NCBI GenBank assembly: GCA_016194585.1
Contig: JACQBG010000032.1
Coordinates: 1-64,000 of the forward strand
Length of the DNA stretch: 64,000 nt
Origin: Gemmatimonadota bacterium
GTDB taxonomy: Bacteria; Gemmatimonadota; Gemmatimonadetes; Gemmatimonadales; Gemmatimonadaceae
Direction: 5' to 3'
In this document: piece after piece, positions 51,784 to 59,509 of the stretch
Layout: every line of letters begins with the position of its first letter
Numbering within the stretch: the first letter of the stretch is position 1
Position numbers and translations under genes: made by a program
Notes under the pieces: model-generated
Told to the model about the DNA's origin: nothing
Database searches by the model: none
What the model saw: the letters and a program-made list of their open reading frames with translations, nothing else

Positions 51784-52083
51784 ATGCCCACCTCACTCTC
51801 GCCGAGTTCCCGCGTCGTCGTCAGCCGCGACCAGGTGTCGACGAACCTGTCGGGCGAGGAGGTGATCCTCTCCGTGAAGGACGGCGTCTACTTCGGACTC
51901 GACCCGGTGGGCGCGCGCATCTGGGCGCTGCTGCAGGAGCGGCGCACCCTCGACGACGTCGCCGACGCCGTCGCCGCCGAGTACGAGGTCGACCGCGCCC
52001 GCGCGCTCGCCGACCTGCTCGCCCTCGCCGCCGAGTTGCTCGACGCCGGACTCATCGAGGTCGTGCCTGAGCCGGCTCGGTAG
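51784..52083 (+). CDS. PqqD-like leader-peptide-binding protein (lasso B1)
   Basis: Small RRE (RiPP recognition element) protein of 99 residues. The body reads STNLSGEEVILSVKDGVYFG and LDPVGARIWALLQERRTLDD, then a winged-helix-like end (VDRARALADLLALAAELLDAGLIE). In lasso pathways B1 binds the precursor leader at its YxxPxLxxxG motif and delivers it to the protease. The gene opens an eight-gene cluster, and the B2 protease starts ten bases after its stop. Confidence in the lasso role comes from context. Confidence 0.9.
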   Translation: MPTSLSPSSRVVVSRDQVSTNLSGEEVILSVKDGVYFGLDPVGARIWALLQERRTLDDVADAVAAEYEVDRARALADLLALAAELLDAGLIEVVPEPAR

Positions 52084-52093
52084 CTTCGTCGCG

Positions 52094-52501
52094 TTGCCGC
52101 GCGCCGAGCGGCGGCTCGCCCTGCGCGCCCTCGGCTGGCTCGCGCTCATGCGGATCGCGTTGCGCGTCGTGCCGTTCGCGTGGATCCGCGGCTGGATCGA
52201 CCGCACGGCCCGGCCGCCCGCGCCTCTGCACGACGGCTGGCCGCTCGCCGTGCGGCGCGCCGTGCAACGCGCGGCGCGCACCTTCCCGGGGAGCCGCTGC
52301 CTGGCGCGCGCGCTCGCCGCGGAGAAGCTGCTGCGCGAGGGCGGACATGAGACGACGCTCACCATCGGCGTGGCGAAGGGTGACCCGGGATCGCCGCCGC
52401 TCGACGCGCACGCGTGGGTCGAGTCGCGCGGGTTCGTCGTCGCCGGCGACGGTGAGCTCGAGCGCTACGCGACGCTCGTGCGCTTCGAGTCGGGGGCGTG
52501 A
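52094..52501 (+). CDS. Lasso peptide leader protease B2 (transglutaminase-like)
   Basis: Cysteine protease of 135 residues that removes the leader from the precursor using ATP-independent thiol chemistry in concert with B1 and the cyclase. Catalytic residues appear as Cys69 in FPGSRCLARAL and His106 in PLDAHAWVESRG, with Asp104 next to it; this is the pattern of the McjB C-terminal family. No ATG or GTG fits; TTG 52094 is the best start, with no obvious ribosome site. Its stop overlaps the cyclase GTG. Confidence 0.9.
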   Translation: MPRAERRLALRALGWLALMRIALRVVPFAWIRGWIDRTARPPAPLHDGWPLAVRRAVQRAARTFPGSRCLARALAAEKLLREGGHETTLTIGVAKGDPGSPPLDAHAWVESRGFVVAGDGELERYATLVRFESGA

Positions 52502-54330
52502 GCGCCTTCGCCGCGGTCGTCGGGCGACGCGACGGCGAGGCGCTGCCGCGCACGTTGCGCGCGATGGCGGCGACCTGGGGAGCGGAGGCGCCGCACGGCC
52601 TCGCGCAGCGCTGCTTCGGCGCCGACGCCGCCGTGTTGCCTCTCGAGCTGTCGGAGGGCGCGCCGCGCGCCGCCGCCGCGGGGCTCGCGCACGGGCTGCT
52701 CGTCGCGCGCGACGGCGCCACGCTCGGCCCGCACGCGCTCGGCGACCGGCTGTGGCTCGCCGGCGACATCCGCCTCGATGCGCAGGGCGCGCTCACGCAG
52801 GCGCTGCGCGACGCCGGCGCCGCGCTGCGCGGCGACGAGTGCGACGACCAGCTGGTGCTGCAGGCGTACGCCGCGTGGGGCGACGCGTGCGTCGCGCGGC
52901 TCATCGGCGATTTCAGCTTCGCGCTCTGGGACGGTGAGCGGCGCACGCTGCTCTGCGCGCGCGACGGGGCGGGGGTGCGGCCGCTCTATTTCGCCGACCT
53001 CGGCGACGCCTTCGTGTGCAGCAACGTGCTGGCGGCGGTGCGCGCGCACCCGGGCGTGAGCGCGTCGCTGCACGAGCCGGCCATCGTCTCGTTCCTGCAG
53101 TGGGGATTCAACGTCGACGCGGCGCGCACGACGTTCGCCGACGTGCGCCGGCTGCCGGCGGCGCGGCAGTTCCTCGTGTCGGCCTCGCGCGGCGTGCACC
53201 AGGAGTGCACGCACTGGACGTATCCCGATCCCCCGCCGCTGCACTATGCCGACGACCGCCAGTACGTGGAGCGGTTCCGCGAGGTGCTCGGCGAGGCGGT
53301 GCGCGACCGGCTGCGGGTATCGCGGGTCGCGATCCAGTTGAGCGGCGGTCTCGATTCGCCGTCGATCGCGGCGACGGCGCGGCGGGTGGCGCCGGGGGTG
53401 GCGCTGGAGGCGTTCACGTTCAGGCTCCCACCGGAGATCGCGTACGACGAGCCACGACTCGCCGCCGAGGTGGCGCATCGACTCGGCGTCGCGTATCACG
53501 AGGCCGACGGGTGGGGGGAACCACTCGCGTACTCGGACGAGCCAGGCCTCGTGCTGCCGGAACCGATCGACGAACCGGAATTCGCGGTGACGCGCGATGG
53601 CGCGGCGCAGATGGCCGCTTGCTCCCCCGTTCTGTTGAACGGCGAGGACGGCGACGCGCTCCTCAGCCCGCCCGGACTGCTCCGCATGTTGCGCATGTGG
53701 TCCGTCTCGCAGGTCGCGCGGCGCGCCGCGCGCTACACGTGGGCCCATCGACGATTTCCGCACACGGGGCTCTGGGTGCGGCGCCGGCTGCGCGACCTGT
53801 TGCACGATCCGCTGCCGGGGGTGCCGTCCGTCGTCCGCGCGGACGCCGCGCGGCGCAGCGGCGACCAGCACCCGATCGCGGCGGCGAATCATCGCACGCA
53901 TCCCGAGGCGCACGCGGACCTGGCCGGGGGCGCCTGGCTGCCCGTGCTCGAACGCTCGAGGCCGGCGTGGACCGGCGCGTCGCAGGAGACGGCATGGCCG
54001 CTGCTCGACGCGCGGCTCATCGCGTTCGTCTGGTCGATCCCGCCCATCCCGTGGTGCCAGCGCAAGGAGATGCTGCGCGTGGCGTTCCGTGGCGAACTGC
54101 CCGACGAGGTGTTGCGGCGGCCCAAGACACCCGTGCGAGGCGACGCGGCCTTCGTTTCGGATGCGCTGCGCCGACGGGTGCGGCGGATGCCCGTGCGACT
54201 AACCGCAGCAACCGGACAATTCATTGACGCCGACGCGTTTCTGGATATGTTGAGTGTATGCCGAACCGACGACCTGCCGATGCTCGTGAGGGTGGCGCAA
54301 CTCGACTGGTGGCTCCGCCGCTGGACGTGA
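52498..54330 (+). CDS. Lasso peptide macrolactam synthetase C (asparagine synthetase-like)
   Basis: 610 residues. An N-terminal glutamine-amidotransferase-like fold (1-200) has lost the catalytic Cys2 (starts MSAFAAV), so no glutaminase activity is expected, as in other lasso cyclases. The C-terminal synthetase domain has the ATP pyrophosphatase loop SGGLDSPSIA at 282-291. It would adenylate the Asp side chain of the core and let the Gly1 amine close the ring. The GTG overlaps the B2 stop, and the precursor GTG overlaps its TGA. Confidence 0.92.
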   Translation: MSAFAAVVGRRDGEALPRTLRAMAATWGAEAPHGLAQRCFGADAAVLPLELSEGAPRAAAAGLAHGLLVARDGATLGPHALGDRLWLAGDIRLDAQGALTQALRDAGAALRGDECDDQLVLQAYAAWGDACVARLIGDFSFALWDGERRTLLCARDGAGVRPLYFADLGDAFVCSNVLAAVRAHPGVSASLHEPAIVSFLQWGFNVDAARTTFADVRRLPAARQFLVSASRGVHQECTHWTYPDPPPLHYADDRQYVERFREVLGEAVRDRLRVSRVAIQLSGGLDSPSIAATARRVAPGVALEAFTFRLPPEIAYDEPRLAAEVAHRLGVAYHEADGWGEPLAYSDEPGLVLPEPIDEPEFAVTRDGAAQMAACSPVLLNGEDGDALLSPPGLLRMLRMWSVSQVARRAARYTWAHRRFPHTGLWVRRRLRDLLHDPLPGVPSVVRADAARRSGDQHPIAAANHRTHPEAHADLAGGAWLPVLERSRPAWTGASQETAWPLLDARLIAFVWSIPPIPWCQRKEMLRVAFRGELPDEVLRRPKTPVRGDAAFVSDALRRRVRRMPVRLTAATGQFIDADAFLDMLSVCRTDDLPMLVRVAQLDWWLRRWT

Positions 54331-54467
54331 CCACCCGTCCGGACGGGCGCGCCTACGCGGCCCCGCGTCTGACCCGGTTCGGAAGCCTCGCCACGTGGAC
54401 GAAGCGTGTCGGCGTGACGTCGACGCTCAGGGACAAGTTCGGCGCCGGAAACAACAAGACGCGGTGA
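54327..54467 (+). CDS. Lasso peptide precursor (A)
   Basis: 46-residue precursor, missed easily because it starts at a GTG that overlaps the cyclase stop (GTGA). The leader has the B1-binding pattern YxxPxLxxxGxxxxxT: Tyr10, Pro13, Leu15, Gly19 and Thr25. The predicted core is residues 29-46, GVTSTLRDKFGAGNNKTR, with Gly1 and Asp8 suited to an 8-residue macrolactam. Oddity: the usual rule places Thr at -2 of the cut, but here Thr25 would be at -4 relative to Gly29, so the cut site needs mass-spectrometric proof. A longer in-frame start at 54258 exists but lies wholly inside the cyclase gene. Confidence 0.87.
   Translation: MTTRPDGRAYAAPRLTRFGSLATWTKRVGVTSTLRDKFGAGNNKTR
54411..54464 (+). other. 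Predicted lasso core peptide
   Basis: Codes for 18 residues: ring Gly1-Asp8, then a 10-residue tail. Arg7 and Arg18 are possible substrates for the PRMT-like enzyme; Thr17 is the nearest hydroxyl to the C-terminus for the kinase. Bulky plugs for locking the thread are not obvious except Phe10, Asn14-Asn15 or Lys16. Confidence 0.65.
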
Positions 54468-54630: not shown

Positions 54631-55617
54631 GTGTACGATCTGCGCGACTACGACACGATGTTCGCGGATCCGCTCCGCACGACCGCAGTGCTCGCGGCGA
54701 TCCGCGCCGCGGTGCGGCCCGGCGACGTGGTCGTCGAGATCGGCACGGGCACGGGATATTTCGCGGTCGCGGCGGCGCGCGCCGGCGCGCGCCACGTCTA
54801 CGCCATCGAGCGCGACGACGTGGCCGTCGTGGCGCGGGAGGTCGTCGCCGACAACGGCGTCGCCGACCGCGTGACGGTGATCCATGGGGACGCCTCGACC
54901 GTCACACTCCCCGAGCGCGGTACCGTGTTGCTCGAGGACACGCGCGGCATCCTGCCGTTCAACGACGGGCGCATCGCGCTGCTCCGCGATGCGTGGGCGC
55001 GTCATCTCGTCGAAGGCGCGCGGTGCGTCATCGCGAGCGACGAGCTGTGGGCCGCGCCGAGCGTGCGCCCCGCGCCCGACGGCGACGCGCTCGTCGTGCT
55101 CGAGTCCACGGTGCACGGCATCGACCGCCGCGCGGTGGAGCGGCGGTTGCGCGACCAGTGGCGGCGGGTGCGCCTCGATGCCGGCGCGCTCCTCGGCGCG
55201 CCGGCGCGGCTGCTCACGCTCGATGTCGCGACGGTCGTCGATGCCGACGCCGAGGCGCGGGTGGCGTGGACCGCCGGACGCGACGGGACGCTCGACGGCA
55301 TCGCGGTCTGGTTCGACGCCGCATTGGCGGGGGGCGGCCGGCTGTCTAACGCGCCGGCGGCGCCGCGTCTGCTTTACGGTCAGGCCTATTTCCCGCTCAC
55401 GCATCCCGTGCCGGTGCGCGCTGGCGACACGATCAGACTCGACTGGCGCGCGATGCTGGTGGATGGGTCGTACCTGTTCGCGTGGCACACGCGCGTCGCG
55501 CCGCGCGACGGCGGGGAGGCGGTGGAGTTCCGGCAGTCGTCGCTCGCCGCGCATGCGCCGGCGCTCGGCACGCTGCTCGCCGCCGGGGCGACAGCGGGGA
55601 GCCGCGGTCATTCCTGA
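54631..55617 (+). CDS. PRMT-type SAM-dependent methyltransferase in lasso cluster
   Basis: 328 residues with the fold order of protein arginine methyltransferases. SAM motif VVEIGTGTGYFAVAAARAGA near 34-53, post-motif acidic residue in YAIERDD near 60, a substrate-loop segment LLEDTRGILPFNDG corresponding to the double-E loop (first Glu kept, second replaced), and a C-terminal beta-barrel with VWFDAAL and PVPVRAGDTIRLDW. The THW loop of PRMTs reads LLYGQ here. The likely substrate is the lasso peptide, perhaps Arg7 or Arg18; this is inference. Start GTG 54631. Confidence 0.8.
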   Translation: MYDLRDYDTMFADPLRTTAVLAAIRAAVRPGDVVVEIGTGTGYFAVAAARAGARHVYAIERDDVAVVAREVVADNGVADRVTVIHGDASTVTLPERGTVLLEDTRGILPFNDGRIALLRDAWARHLVEGARCVIASDELWAAPSVRPAPDGDALVVLESTVHGIDRRAVERRLRDQWRRVRLDAGALLGAPARLLTLDVATVVDADAEARVAWTAGRDGTLDGIAVWFDAALAGGGRLSNAPAAPRLLYGQAYFPLTHPVPVRAGDTIRLDWRAMLVDGSYLFAWHTRVAPRDGGEAVEFRQSSLAAHAPALGTLLAAGATAGSRGHS

Positions 55618-56569
55618 CTACGCGATCTACGGACTCACCCTCGCCTGCGACCAGCCGCTCGCCGGATTGCGCGCCGCGCCGCCGGGCGCGGCGGCCGACG
55701 TGACGGTGCATCTGCAGGCCCGCCCACCGTGGCACGACGGCCCCGTGTCCGAGGGCGGGCAGATCCACCGGTCGCGCGACGGCGCTGACGACCTCGCGAC
55801 GGTCGACGTCGCGTGGATCGGCGCGCGCGACGGCGTGCGGATCGCGTACGTCGACGGCACGACGTTCCACGTGCGCGCCGACTCGCGCGAAGTGTGGGCG
55901 TCGTGGGTGCCCCCGTACACGGTCGAGGATGCCGCCGTCTACCTGCTCGGACCGGTGCTGAGCTGGGTGCTGCGCTCGCGCGGCGTGCTCTCCCTGCACG
56001 CGAGCGCCGTGGTGATCGACGGGCGCGCGATGGCGTTCTGCGGACCGCACGGCGCGGGGAAGAGCACGATCGCAGCGGCGCTCTCGGCGCGCGGGTTCCC
56101 GCTGCTCACCGACGACGTGCTCGCGCTCGCCGAACGCGACCGCGTCGTGACGGCGTGGCCGGCGTTCGCGCAGGTGCGGCTGTGGAACGACTCGGCGCGG
56201 CTGCTCGTCGGCGACGCGTCGCGGCTCCCGCGCATCACGCCCAACTGGGACAAGCGCGCGTTCGCGGTGGCGACGCATGGCGCGGGGCTCGCCGCCGAGG
56301 CGGCGCCGCTCGGCGCCGTGTTCCTGCTGGCGCCGCGGCGGCGGGGCGACGCGCCGCGCATCGAGCGCGTCGAGGGGGCGGCGACGTTCGTCGCGCTCGT
56401 GAAGGAGACCTCGGTGAACTACATGCTCGACGCGGCGATGCGCGCCGAGGAATTCCGTCTGCTGTCGCGGCTGATGGCGCACGTGCCGATGTTCCGGGCC
56501 ACGCCCGACGACGATCCCGCACGCCTCGACGAGTTCCTCGACAAGGTGATCGAGGTCGCGCGTGGCTAG
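55610..56569 (+). CDS. HPr-kinase-like serine/threonine kinase (lasso tailoring)
   Basis: 319 residues, related to HprK-type kinases such as that of the paeninodin cluster, which phosphorylates the C-terminal serine of a lasso peptide. The P-loop is FCGPHGAGKSTIAA near 144-157, preceded by LSLHASAVVIDGRAMA with the family histidine, and followed by LLTDDVLAL. No ATG, GTG or TTG is available near the true N-terminus; ATT at 55610 has GGGGAG eight bases upstream and overlaps the methyltransferase stop. The next possible GTG (near 55699) would cut into the conserved fold. Confidence 0.85.
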   Translation: MPDYAIYGLTLACDQPLAGLRAAPPGAAADVTVHLQARPPWHDGPVSEGGQIHRSRDGADDLATVDVAWIGARDGVRIAYVDGTTFHVRADSREVWASWVPPYTVEDAAVYLLGPVLSWVLRSRGVLSLHASAVVIDGRAMAFCGPHGAGKSTIAAALSARGFPLLTDDVLALAERDRVVTAWPAFAQVRLWNDSARLLVGDASRLPRITPNWDKRAFAVATHGAGLAAEAAPLGAVFLLAPRRRGDAPRIERVEGAATFVALVKETSVNYMLDAAMRAEEFRLLSRLMAHVPMFRATPDDDPARLDEFLDKVIEVARG

Positions 56570-57731
56570 TGCTTCAGCGTCGGGCGCCGCGGCGGGCGCG
56601 CGCGGGGCGTTGCGCGAGATCGCGCGCGCGATGGTGACGGGCGACGACACAGGCGTGGCGCGCGCCTGCGAGGGCGTCGATCATGCCCTCCTGCTCGCGC
56701 TCGCGGCGGAGCACCGGATGGTCGGCGTGGCGGGGGTGGTGCTGGATCGCGTCGGCGCCGGGGTACTGCCGGCCACGTCGTGGGCGCAGTGGCAGGCCGC
56801 GCGTCGCGACGCGGCCGCGTCGGCGCTCGTCGCGGCGGGGGAGCTGTCGCAGCTCTTCGCGATGTTCGCGGCGGCCGGCGTGCCGGCGATCGCCTACAAA
56901 GGGCCGGCGCTCGCGCTCGAGGCCTACGGCGACCTCGGCTTGCGCCCGTGCGTCGACCTCGACGTCGTCGTCGCGCCGTCGCACTTCACGTTGGCGCGGG
57001 CGGCCCTGCTCTCGGGTGGTTACGCGTCGAGGCTGGGCATGGGGCTCGTGCAGGAAGCGGTGGTGTTCGCGGGGCAGGGGCACGCCGAATACGCGCTGCC
57101 GAGCGCGGGCTTGCCGTTCGTGGAGCTGCACTGGCGGTTCGCCGCGCAGCGTCTGCCGTGGAGCCCGAAGGTGGAGGACGTGATCGCGCGGGCGCGGCGC
57201 GTGGGGATCGCGGGTCACGACGTGCCCATCCCGTGCGACGAGGATCAGCTGCTGCTGCTCGCCTGGCACGGGACGCGGCACGCGTGGGCGCAGCTCGAGT
57301 GGCTCGTGGCCCTGGGCGTCTTTCTCGCGCGGCCCATCGATGCCGCCGCGGTGCTGCGCCGCGCGGAGCGCCACGGTGGCGCGCGCGCGCTGCTCGTCGG
57401 GGTGTCGGCGGCGGCGGCCGTGCTCCGTGTCGCGCTTCCGGATGCGTTCGCCGTGGCGGCCGCGCGCGATGCGCGCGTGGCCCAGGCGGTACGTGCGATG
57501 GTCGCGCCATGGCTCGCTTCCGCGGACGCGACGCCGCGCGCGTCCGTCGTGGAGCGGCAACTGCTCGAGCGGCGCCGCGACGTGCTGCGCTATCACGCCG
57601 CACGCCTGCTGCTGCCGACGAAGCGCGAATGGTCGCTCGTGCGGCTGCCGGCGGTGCTCACGCCGTGCTACGTGCCGATCCGTCTCGCGCGGCTGGCGCT
57701 CCGCGGCCCCGCTCGCGAGGACGACGAGTGA
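56562..57731 (+). CDS. NTP_transf_5 family nucleotidyltransferase (lasso tailoring)
   Basis: 389 residues with the MNT/NTP_transf_5 pattern: AIAYKGPALALEAYGDLGLR followed by VDLDVVV near 132-138 whose aspartates would bind metal, and the later VELHWRF and LLLLAWHGTRHAW. Homologues accompany HprK-like kinases in lasso clusters, where they add groups to the phosphorylated peptide; one such case is pseudomycoidin of Bacillus. GTG overlaps the end of the kinase gene by 8 bases, and its own stop overlaps the ABC gene start. Confidence 0.85.
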   Translation: MASASASGAAAGARGALREIARAMVTGDDTGVARACEGVDHALLLALAAEHRMVGVAGVVLDRVGAGVLPATSWAQWQAARRDAAASALVAAGELSQLFAMFAAAGVPAIAYKGPALALEAYGDLGLRPCVDLDVVVAPSHFTLARAALLSGGYASRLGMGLVQEAVVFAGQGHAEYALPSAGLPFVELHWRFAAQRLPWSPKVEDVIARARRVGIAGHDVPIPCDEDQLLLLAWHGTRHAWAQLEWLVALGVFLARPIDAAAVLRRAERHGGARALLVGVSAAAAVLRVALPDAFAVAAARDARVAQAVRAMVAPWLASADATPRASVVERQLLERRRDVLRYHAARLLLPTKREWSLVRLPAVLTPCYVPIRLARLALRGPAREDDE

Positions 57732-59509
57732 CCGCGGTCGCGCGCACGTCGATCCCGACGTTCGCGGCCGCGCTCTGGCGTCGCCGGCGGCGCGCCATCG
57801 TCGCGTCGCTCGTGCTCCTCGTGCTCAGCTCGCTGTCCGAAGGCGCGGGGCTGCTCATCGTCGTGCCGATGCTGTCGCTCGCCGGCGTGCCGCTGGGCGA
57901 CGGGGTGATGCACGCCATCGCGGTGCGCATCGGCCAGGCGATGGCGGCGGTGGGGCTGCCGCTGACGCTGCCGTCGGTGCTCGTCACGGCGGTGGCGATC
58001 CTCGGCGTTCGGACGCTGCTCGTACAATGGGAGTCGACGCGGGCGCGGCGGTTGGCGCTCGGCGTCGTCGCCGAGGAGCGCGACCGGCTCTTCTCGGCGG
58101 TGGTCGCGATGCCGTGGTCGCGATTCGTGCGGCTCCGCGGTTCCGACGTCGTGCAGGCGCTCACGGTGCACACGGAGTCGGTGGAGTTCGCGGTGGGGGA
58201 ACTCCTGCGCCTGCTCGCCGAGGCGCTCACGGTGCTGGTCACCGTGGTCGTCGCGGCGCGCGTGTCGTGGGCGGTGACGGCGCTCGTGGGCGTCACCGGC
58301 GTGGCGTTGCTCGCCCTGCTGCGCGTGGTGCGCGCGCCCGGCAGGGACGAGAGCGAGCGCGCCGTCGCGCGCTCGGAGAGCGTGTTCCGCATGGCGACCG
58401 ACGCGGTCGGCGGAATGAAAGCGGTGAAGGGATATGGTGCCGAGGGCCGCACGGTGGCGGCGTTCGCGGAGGCGAACGCGCGGCTGGGCGACGCGCTGCG
58501 CGCGCTCGACGCGACGCGTGCCCGCGCCGCGGTGGCCCTCGGCGTGGGGATGGCGGTCGCGCTCGCGGTCATGGTGTACGTCGCCGTGGCGGCGTTCCAT
58601 CTGGCGCCGGCCGCGCTGCTCCTGCTGCTCGCGATGTACACGCGCCTCGTGCCGCGGCTCGCGTCGGCGCAACAGGCGTGGCAGCATCTTGGCGAGTCGC
58701 TGGCGTCGTGGGACGTCGTGCAGCGCCTGCGCGCGGAGTGCGAGCGCGAGGCGGCGACGCTGGCGCCGGCGGCGCCATGGCGACCGTCGAGCGCGCCCGC
58801 CGTGCGCTTCGAGCGCGTGACCTTCCGCTACGACGGGGCGGCCGGCGACGCGCTCGAGGGCGTCACCTTCGACGTGCCGGCGGGCGCGATGACCGCGATC
58901 GTCGGCCCCTCGGGAAGCGGGAAGACGACGGCAGCGGACGTGATGGCGGGATTGCTCGAGCCGGCGAGTGGGCGCGTGCTCGCCGACGGTGCGCCGCTCG
59001 ACCGGCGCGCCCTTCCGGCGTGGCAGGCGACGATCGGCGTGCTGCCGCAGGACGTGCTGTTGTTCCCGGGGACGGTGCGCGAGAACCTCCGCTGGGCGGC
59101 GCCGCTCGCGGACGACGCGGACCTCCACCGCGCGCTCGAGGCGGCGTCGGCGACGTTCGTGCGGGGGTGGCCGGCCGGCCTCGACACGCCGGTCGGCGAC
59201 CGCGGCACGCTGCTCTCCGGTGGGGAGCGCCAGCGCATCGCGCTCGCGCGCGCGCTGCTGCGACGGCCGGCGCTGCTCGTGCTCGACGAGGCGACGAGCG
59301 CGCTCGACGCGGAGACGGAGCAGGGGATCGTCACCGCGCTGCGCGCGCTCGCGCCCCGCCCGACGATCGTGATCGTGTCGCACCGGCTTTCCGTGGTGCG
59401 CGCGGCCGACCACGTGGTGGTGCTCGACGGCGGCGCGGTCGTCGCCGAAGGGCGATGGGAGGAGCTGGCGGGCTCGGTGCCGCGCGTGAGGGAGTTGTTC
59501 GCGCTGTGA
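57728..59509 (+). CDS. ABC transporter, fused permease and ATPase (lasso export, D)
   Basis: 593-residue exporter: six membrane helices in residues 20-320 followed by the nucleotide-binding domain with Walker A IVGPSGSGKTTA near 391-402, signature LLSGGERQRIALA near 495-507, Walker B LLVLDEATSALD and H-loop VSHRLS. In lasso clusters this protein exports the peptide and gives self-immunity. GTG start overlaps the nucleotidyltransferase stop. Last gene of the cluster; it converges on ychF with only three bases between stops. Confidence 0.93.
   Translation: MTAVARTSIPTFAAALWRRRRRAIVASLVLLVLSSLSEGAGLLIVVPMLSLAGVPLGDGVMHAIAVRIGQAMAAVGLPLTLPSVLVTAVAILGVRTLLVQWESTRARRLALGVVAEERDRLFSAVVAMPWSRFVRLRGSDVVQALTVHTESVEFAVGELLRLLAEALTVLVTVVVAARVSWAVTALVGVTGVALLALLRVVRAPGRDESERAVARSESVFRMATDAVGGMKAVKGYGAEGRTVAAFAEANARLGDALRALDATRARAAVALGVGMAVALAVMVYVAVAAFHLAPAALLLLLAMYTRLVPRLASAQQAWQHLGESLASWDVVQRLRAECEREAATLAPAAPWRPSSAPAVRFERVTFRYDGAAGDALEGVTFDVPAGAMTAIVGPSGSGKTTAADVMAGLLEPASGRVLADGAPLDRRALPAWQATIGVLPQDVLLFPGTVRENLRWAAPLADDADLHRALEAASATFVRGWPAGLDTPVGDRGTLLSGGERQRIALARALLRRPALLVLDEATSALDAETEQGIVTALRALAPRPTIVIVSHRLSVVRAADHVVVLDGGAVVAEGRWEELAGSVPRVRELFAL

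Follow-up and report, generated by a model that had tools for sequence, protein, structure and literature searches.

The 46-residue frame at positions 54327–54467 (+ strand) of the window, by which we mean the whole 64,000-nucleotide stretch of DNA that was analysed, almost certainly encodes a real lasso precursor, and we call it gene A. We also hold, with good confidence in the whole taken together, that gene A is a precursor within the lasso cluster described below and that it sets two rules against each other: a Thr at position -2 of the leader, and a ring of 7–9 residues. Our favourite for the final N-terminus is Gly29, with Thr at -4 and an 8-residue Gly29–Asp36 ring, a choice that we rate at about even.

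The precursor gene and its cluster

Gene A starts with GTG and its translation is VTTRPDGRAYAAPRLTRFGSLATWTKRVGVTSTLRDKFGAGNNKTR followed by a stop. The original prediction had placed a GTG-started frame here, overlapping the end of the cyclase gene, and the frame is indeed there, its GTG overlapping the cyclase TGA stop in four bases (GTGA). Overlaps of the same kind occur at the B2/C and nucleotidyltransferase/ABC junctions, and this repeated style within the operon supports translation from the GTG at 54327. Translation from another in-frame ATG, at 54258, would instead yield a product of 69 residues beginning within the cyclase gene.

Residues Y10, P13, L15, G19, T25, Gly29 and Asp36 were all predicted and are all in the translation, Asp36 being position 8 when counted from Gly29. 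The leader recognition segment YAAPRLTRFGSLATWT runs from Y10 to T25 (54354–54401, +) and has the YxxPxL motif with a Thr 15 residues past the Tyr, following the published register of Tyr(-17), Pro(-14), Leu(-12) and Thr(-2) (PMC10368454). Asp36 (54432–54434, +) is the predicted isopeptide acceptor because there is no other acidic residue after T25.

Gene A lies in a split-B lasso cluster, with all genes on the + strand. B1 (51784–52083; PqqD E 3.9e-19) is a PqqD-like RiPP recognition element (RRE) with the conserved GVYFGLD tyrosine. It is followed by the B2 leader peptidase (52094–52501; Transglut_core3; lasso_biosyn_B2 E 1.3e-24, above cut-off), which is transglutaminase-like, and by C, an asparagine-synthetase-like lasso cyclase (52498–54330; Asn_synthase E 1.2e-28) that has GTGA overlaps with both B2 and A. 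After gene A come a PRMT-like methyltransferase with an altered active-site loop (54631–55617), an HprK-like peptide kinase (55610–56569, start approximate), a nucleotidyltransferase (NTP_transf_5; 56562–57731) and an MsbA-like ABC exporter (57728–59509) with a GTGA overlap with the preceding gene.

Two NCBIfam precursor profiles find gene A below their cut-offs. The lasso_cyano profile (NF033528) covers the product from its leader as far as residue 35 and scores 16.9 bits (curated cut-off 33, E 0.005), and lasso_leader_L3 reaches 13.5 bits where its cut-off is 19 (E 0.06). The gene would therefore escape profile-based calling. A search with Rfam gave no match at the locus.

Of 179 genomes in the family, 34 have relatives of the cyclase, as have 47 of the 395 sampled across the phylum Gemmatimonadota. 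The neighbourhoods of these relatives contain short frames with the same leader, mostly right beside the cyclase. The nearest homologue, locus L005, has three precursors and a cyclase 62% identical to that of the window; one of these precursors ends RRVGTNVNALRDKPGGGTNKTQ, and the window precursor ends KRVGVTSTLRDKFGAGNNKTR. In a cyclase tree, the window falls inside one clade of 30 loci. To these we added L073 and L074, which have truncated cyclases, for a clade of 32 loci and 52 precursors. The original prediction called for comparison with precursors next to homologous cyclases. Leader, ring Asp and C-terminus are conserved there, which is the opposite of a different conserved precursor with no conservation of this frame, and by this homology the identification of gene A as a lasso precursor is strongly supported.

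It is highly improbable, and already largely refuted, that the frame is a chance ORF with the true precursor elsewhere: it is short, GTG-started and under the profile cut-offs, but homologues with conserved motifs stand at the same place, and the leader pattern with an acidic residue in a short frame, found once in the 64 kb window, was found in none of 60 windows simulated with a second-order Markov model, a chance estimate that applies to simulation of this window.

We made several other observations on lasso loci in these genomes. No B2 peptidase gene was detectable beside L046, L051, L052, L054, L055, L057, L059, L068 and L070, where B1, C and precursors are present, and the L046 genome (G142) is absent among the B2 matches listed from the phylum search. 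The leader peptidase of such clade loci may act in trans or may have been replaced. Of the 395 sampled Gemmatimonadota genomes, 119 have a lasso B2 peptidase gene, and many Gemmatimonadota precursor types have a non-Gly residue after the Thr. In some clade precursors the ring segment and the tail each contain one Cys (L005 187–306 and 378–503, L036 7901–8020, L038 1070–1390), suggesting a ring–tail disulfide. One weak precursor match, on contig C31 of genome G000 (L002), was dropped; it is on the opposite strand to long frames resembling multi-CxxCH proteins, and we saw no lasso genes nearby.

Spacing between the leader Thr and the ring Asp

The Tyr-to-Thr distance in the gene A product is 15, the same as in canonical precursors. 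Since this spacing is fully canonical, the shift lies after the Thr and not within the leader. Among the relatives the constancy of this distance is partly imposed, as our precursor search pattern required it; the pattern left the Thr-to-ring-acid distance free.

T25 and D36 are 11 residues apart. Across the 52 clade precursors the Thr-to-Asp distance is 10 in 32, 11 in 17 and 12 in 3 (two in L005 and one in L035). As controls we used 60 other lasso loci from the phylum, in which an acidic residue at 8–10 was required, so that their range is partly imposed; the non-redundant controls have a distance of 9 in 30 of 39, 10 in 7 and 8 in 2. Characterised lasso rings have 7, 8 or 9 residues (PMC13352647). 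With Thr at -2, the gene A product has no Asp or Glu at core positions 7–9: D36 is T+11 (that is, 11 residues past the Thr), which is core position 10, and a core start at T+3 or T+4 is needed to bring it to 7–9. If D36, the sole acid after the Thr, is the acceptor, Thr(-2) and a 7–9 residue ring are incompatible here.

The start site fixes the ring sizes of the whole clade. A core beginning at T+2 gives rings of 9, 10 and 11 residues, T+3 gives 8, 9 and 10, and T+4 gives 7, 8 and 9, the only start that keeps every clade ring within 7–9. A start at T+5 was rejected, as it gives 6-residue rings at spacing 10.

Candidate start sites of the core

With Gly29 as residue 1, the candidate core is GVTSTLRDKFGAGNNKTR (54411–54464, +), with an 8-residue G1–D8 ring. 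The residues at T+4 favour it. Clade precursors are enriched in small residues (G/A/S) at precisely this position, and G/A/S/C occupy it in 27 of the 34 non-redundant ones, where 12.4 would be expected (permutation p 2e-4, an optimistic value since sequences in the non-redundant set remain related). Among those of spacing 11 or 12 the count is 14 of 16 against 6.3 expected. A position-1 profile built from the phylum controls scores -33 bits at T+2, +2 at T+3 and +7 at T+4, and T+4 came out best in 77% of bootstraps and T+3 in the other 23%, with T+2 never best. The mixture of ring sizes has a precedent in the caulosegnins, in which one enzyme set yields both 8- and 9-residue rings (PMC13352647).

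Other observations count against Thr(-4). It gives 7-residue rings, which are uncommon, to the 32 clade members whose spacing is 10, and a sub-group carries Asp at T+4. The controls use many residues at position 1, so that Gly is not needed there. B1 keeps the RRE tyrosine that has been suggested to contact Thr(-2) (PMC10368454), and this, with the canonical Tyr-to-Thr ruler, argues for an unshifted cut.

A Gly29 start may come from a cut moved by two residues or from a normal cut followed by trimming. We consider it a tentative possibility, somewhat short of even, that the clade has a leader peptidase cutting two residues farther from the conserved Thr, which would put the Thr at P4. We did not find this register in the open literature searched. 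The original prediction took the Thr at -4 as a possible mark of a variant cut rule of B2. This is plausible from the sequences and held up in part: residues typical of position 1 are at T+4 (or T+3) and not at T+2, but the spacing from Tyr to Thr is canonical. The displaced Thr could reflect an oversized ring, a cut that lies one or two residues further on, or a normal cut with later trimming.

A cut shifted by one residue, with Thr at -3, Val28 as residue 1, Gly29 as residue 2 and a 9-residue ring, is in our judgement rather unlikely. Paeninodin starts with Ala1-Gly2, to which a Val28-Gly29 start can be likened. Sister kinase clades have T-x-(A/I/L/Y)-G, with which T-x-x-V-G aligns given one inserted residue, and an in silico prediction for rumen precursors also has this register (PMC7533575). 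When positions 1 and 2 are scored jointly, T+3 is favoured in 94% of bootstraps, and it leaves rings of 8 and 9 in 49 of the 52 clade precursors. However, the remaining three, which are those with spacing 12, would need 10-residue rings, and position 1 alone scores higher at T+4.

The canonical Thr(-2) start is unlikely. The core would then be RVGVTSTLRDKFGAGNNKTR (54405–54464, +), beginning with Arg27 and closing an unprecedented 10-residue R1–D10 ring, with rings of 9 to 11 across the clade. In its favour are the retained Tyr(-17)/Pro(-14)/Leu(-12) register of the leader (PMC10368454) and the conserved RRE tyrosine, and the members with spacing 10 would have ordinary 9-residue rings. In other clades of the phylum, position 1 is often a residue other than Gly. 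The clade residue at T+1 looks like an ordinary -1 residue, and for this reason T+2 is the preferred start in about 95% of bootstraps when -1 is scored jointly with position 1 or when the score spans -1 to 4. Against this, 10- and 11-residue rings are not known, whereas those of 7, 8 and 9 are (PMC13352647), the position-1 profile is at its poorest at T+2 (see above), and none of the 34 non-redundant precursors has Gly there.

A further route to Gly29 is a normal B2 cut after Lys26, with a host peptidase removing Arg27-Val28 before cyclisation. It would reconcile the canonical ruler with the position-1-like residue at T+4, but we noticed no additional peptidase gene in the clusters, and leader removal and cyclisation of lasso peptides appear to be coupled (PMC10885120), and we regard it as quite improbable.

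Tailoring enzymes and the proposed pathway

Within the fetched stretches of the 32 clade loci, a kinase was present in 29, a nucleotidyltransferase in 27 and the methyltransferase in 24. The window kinase contains HASAVVIDGRAMAFCGPHGAGKS and LLTDD, so that the His, P-loop (GxxGxGKS) and Asp-Asp motif described for lasso kinases (PMC10368454) is intact, as H...GPHGAGKS...DD. In 50 of the 52 precursors, (K/R)(T/S) stands at the C-terminus with no more than two residues after it, a count taken from 50 of 54 by leaving out the L078 and L080 precursors, which do not have the motif and are outside the clade in the tree. In the window this is the K-T-R at 54456–54464 (+). The motif suggests a phosphorylated hydroxyl residue in the peptide, and by analogy with paeninodin and pseudomycoidin (PMC9266682) the clade-wide Thr/Ser is the likely kinase target.

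The methyltransferase aligns with PRMT6 across both domains (E 2e-23). Its loop is (E/S)DxRGxxP, in place of the double-Glu loop of protein arginine methyltransferases, and THW is absent. As the catalytic loop is not conserved, we rejected the assignment as a true arginine methyltransferase. PRMT-like proteins with this altered loop are inside the lasso clusters both in the window and in the 24 clade loci, and in L046 (6460–7611) and L052 (9079–10245) the methyltransferase has a C-terminal extension (DLLDAVDGARTLEEIAALL...) that looks PqqD-like by eye.

The psm cluster for pseudomycoidin in Bacillus pseudomycoides is not known to contain a PRMT-like gene. This cluster resembles that of the window in having kinase and nucleotidyltransferase genes; the C-terminal Ser receives a phosphate from the kinase, and a hexose is then added to this phosphorylated hydroxyl residue through the nucleotidyltransferase homologue (PMC9266682). 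It differs in belonging to Bacillota, whereas the window clade has the (K/R)(T/S) C-terminus, with Thr dominant, and the longer Thr-to-Asp spacing. Paeninodin is likewise kinase-tailored, with its C-terminal Ser phosphorylated (PMC9266682), but has Thr(-2), which was counted as universal in earlier precursors (PMC10368454). The Bsf cluster of Bradymonas sediminis shares B1, B2, C, kinase, nucleotidyltransferase, ABC protein and the YxxPxL register with the window (PMC10368454), but its precursor has Ile(-2) instead of Thr, a normal Gly1–Asp8 register and a phosphorylated Ser3, and the cluster is without a methyltransferase. Metanodin is a metagenomic lasso peptide with an unusual ring start, and automatic annotation failed to pick up its precursor gene (PMC12670498). 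It differs in having Asn1 with the canonical Thr(-2) and in coming from Gammaproteobacteria.

In titles and abstracts of the open literature, lasso peptides and Gemmatimonadota (or Gemmatimonadetes) were named together only in passing, and the sole match for lasso peptide with arginine methyltransferase concerned, by its title and abstract, an antimycobacterial agent. We found no description there of a kinase, nucleotidyltransferase and PRMT-like enzyme combined with a (K/R)(T/S) C-terminus.

The sequence itself shows gene A, its cluster, the homology and the Thr-to-Asp spacing; every enzymatic step and the exact N-terminus are inferred. The product of gene A would be the precursor of a tailored lasso peptide. 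The RRE of B1 would grip the YxxPxL leader, B2 would remove the leader, and C would link Asp36 to the new N-terminus. Decoration of the precursor or the product, most likely around the C-terminal K-T-R, would fall to the kinase, the nucleotidyltransferase and the PRMT-like enzyme, and the ABC protein would export the peptide. The precursor is one of a Gemmatimonadota clade with extra residues between the conserved leader Thr and the ring Asp, which makes Gly29 the most probable final N-terminus.

Thr(-2) and rings of 7–9 residues are two rules used for calling lasso precursors and predicting their masses. Many members of this well-populated clade cannot satisfy both, so their products would be missed or given wrong masses. 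The conflict would point either to a protease with a new register or to an enlarged ring. The clade also combines a kinase, a nucleotidyltransferase and a PRMT-like enzyme with a conserved C-terminal (K/R)(T/S).
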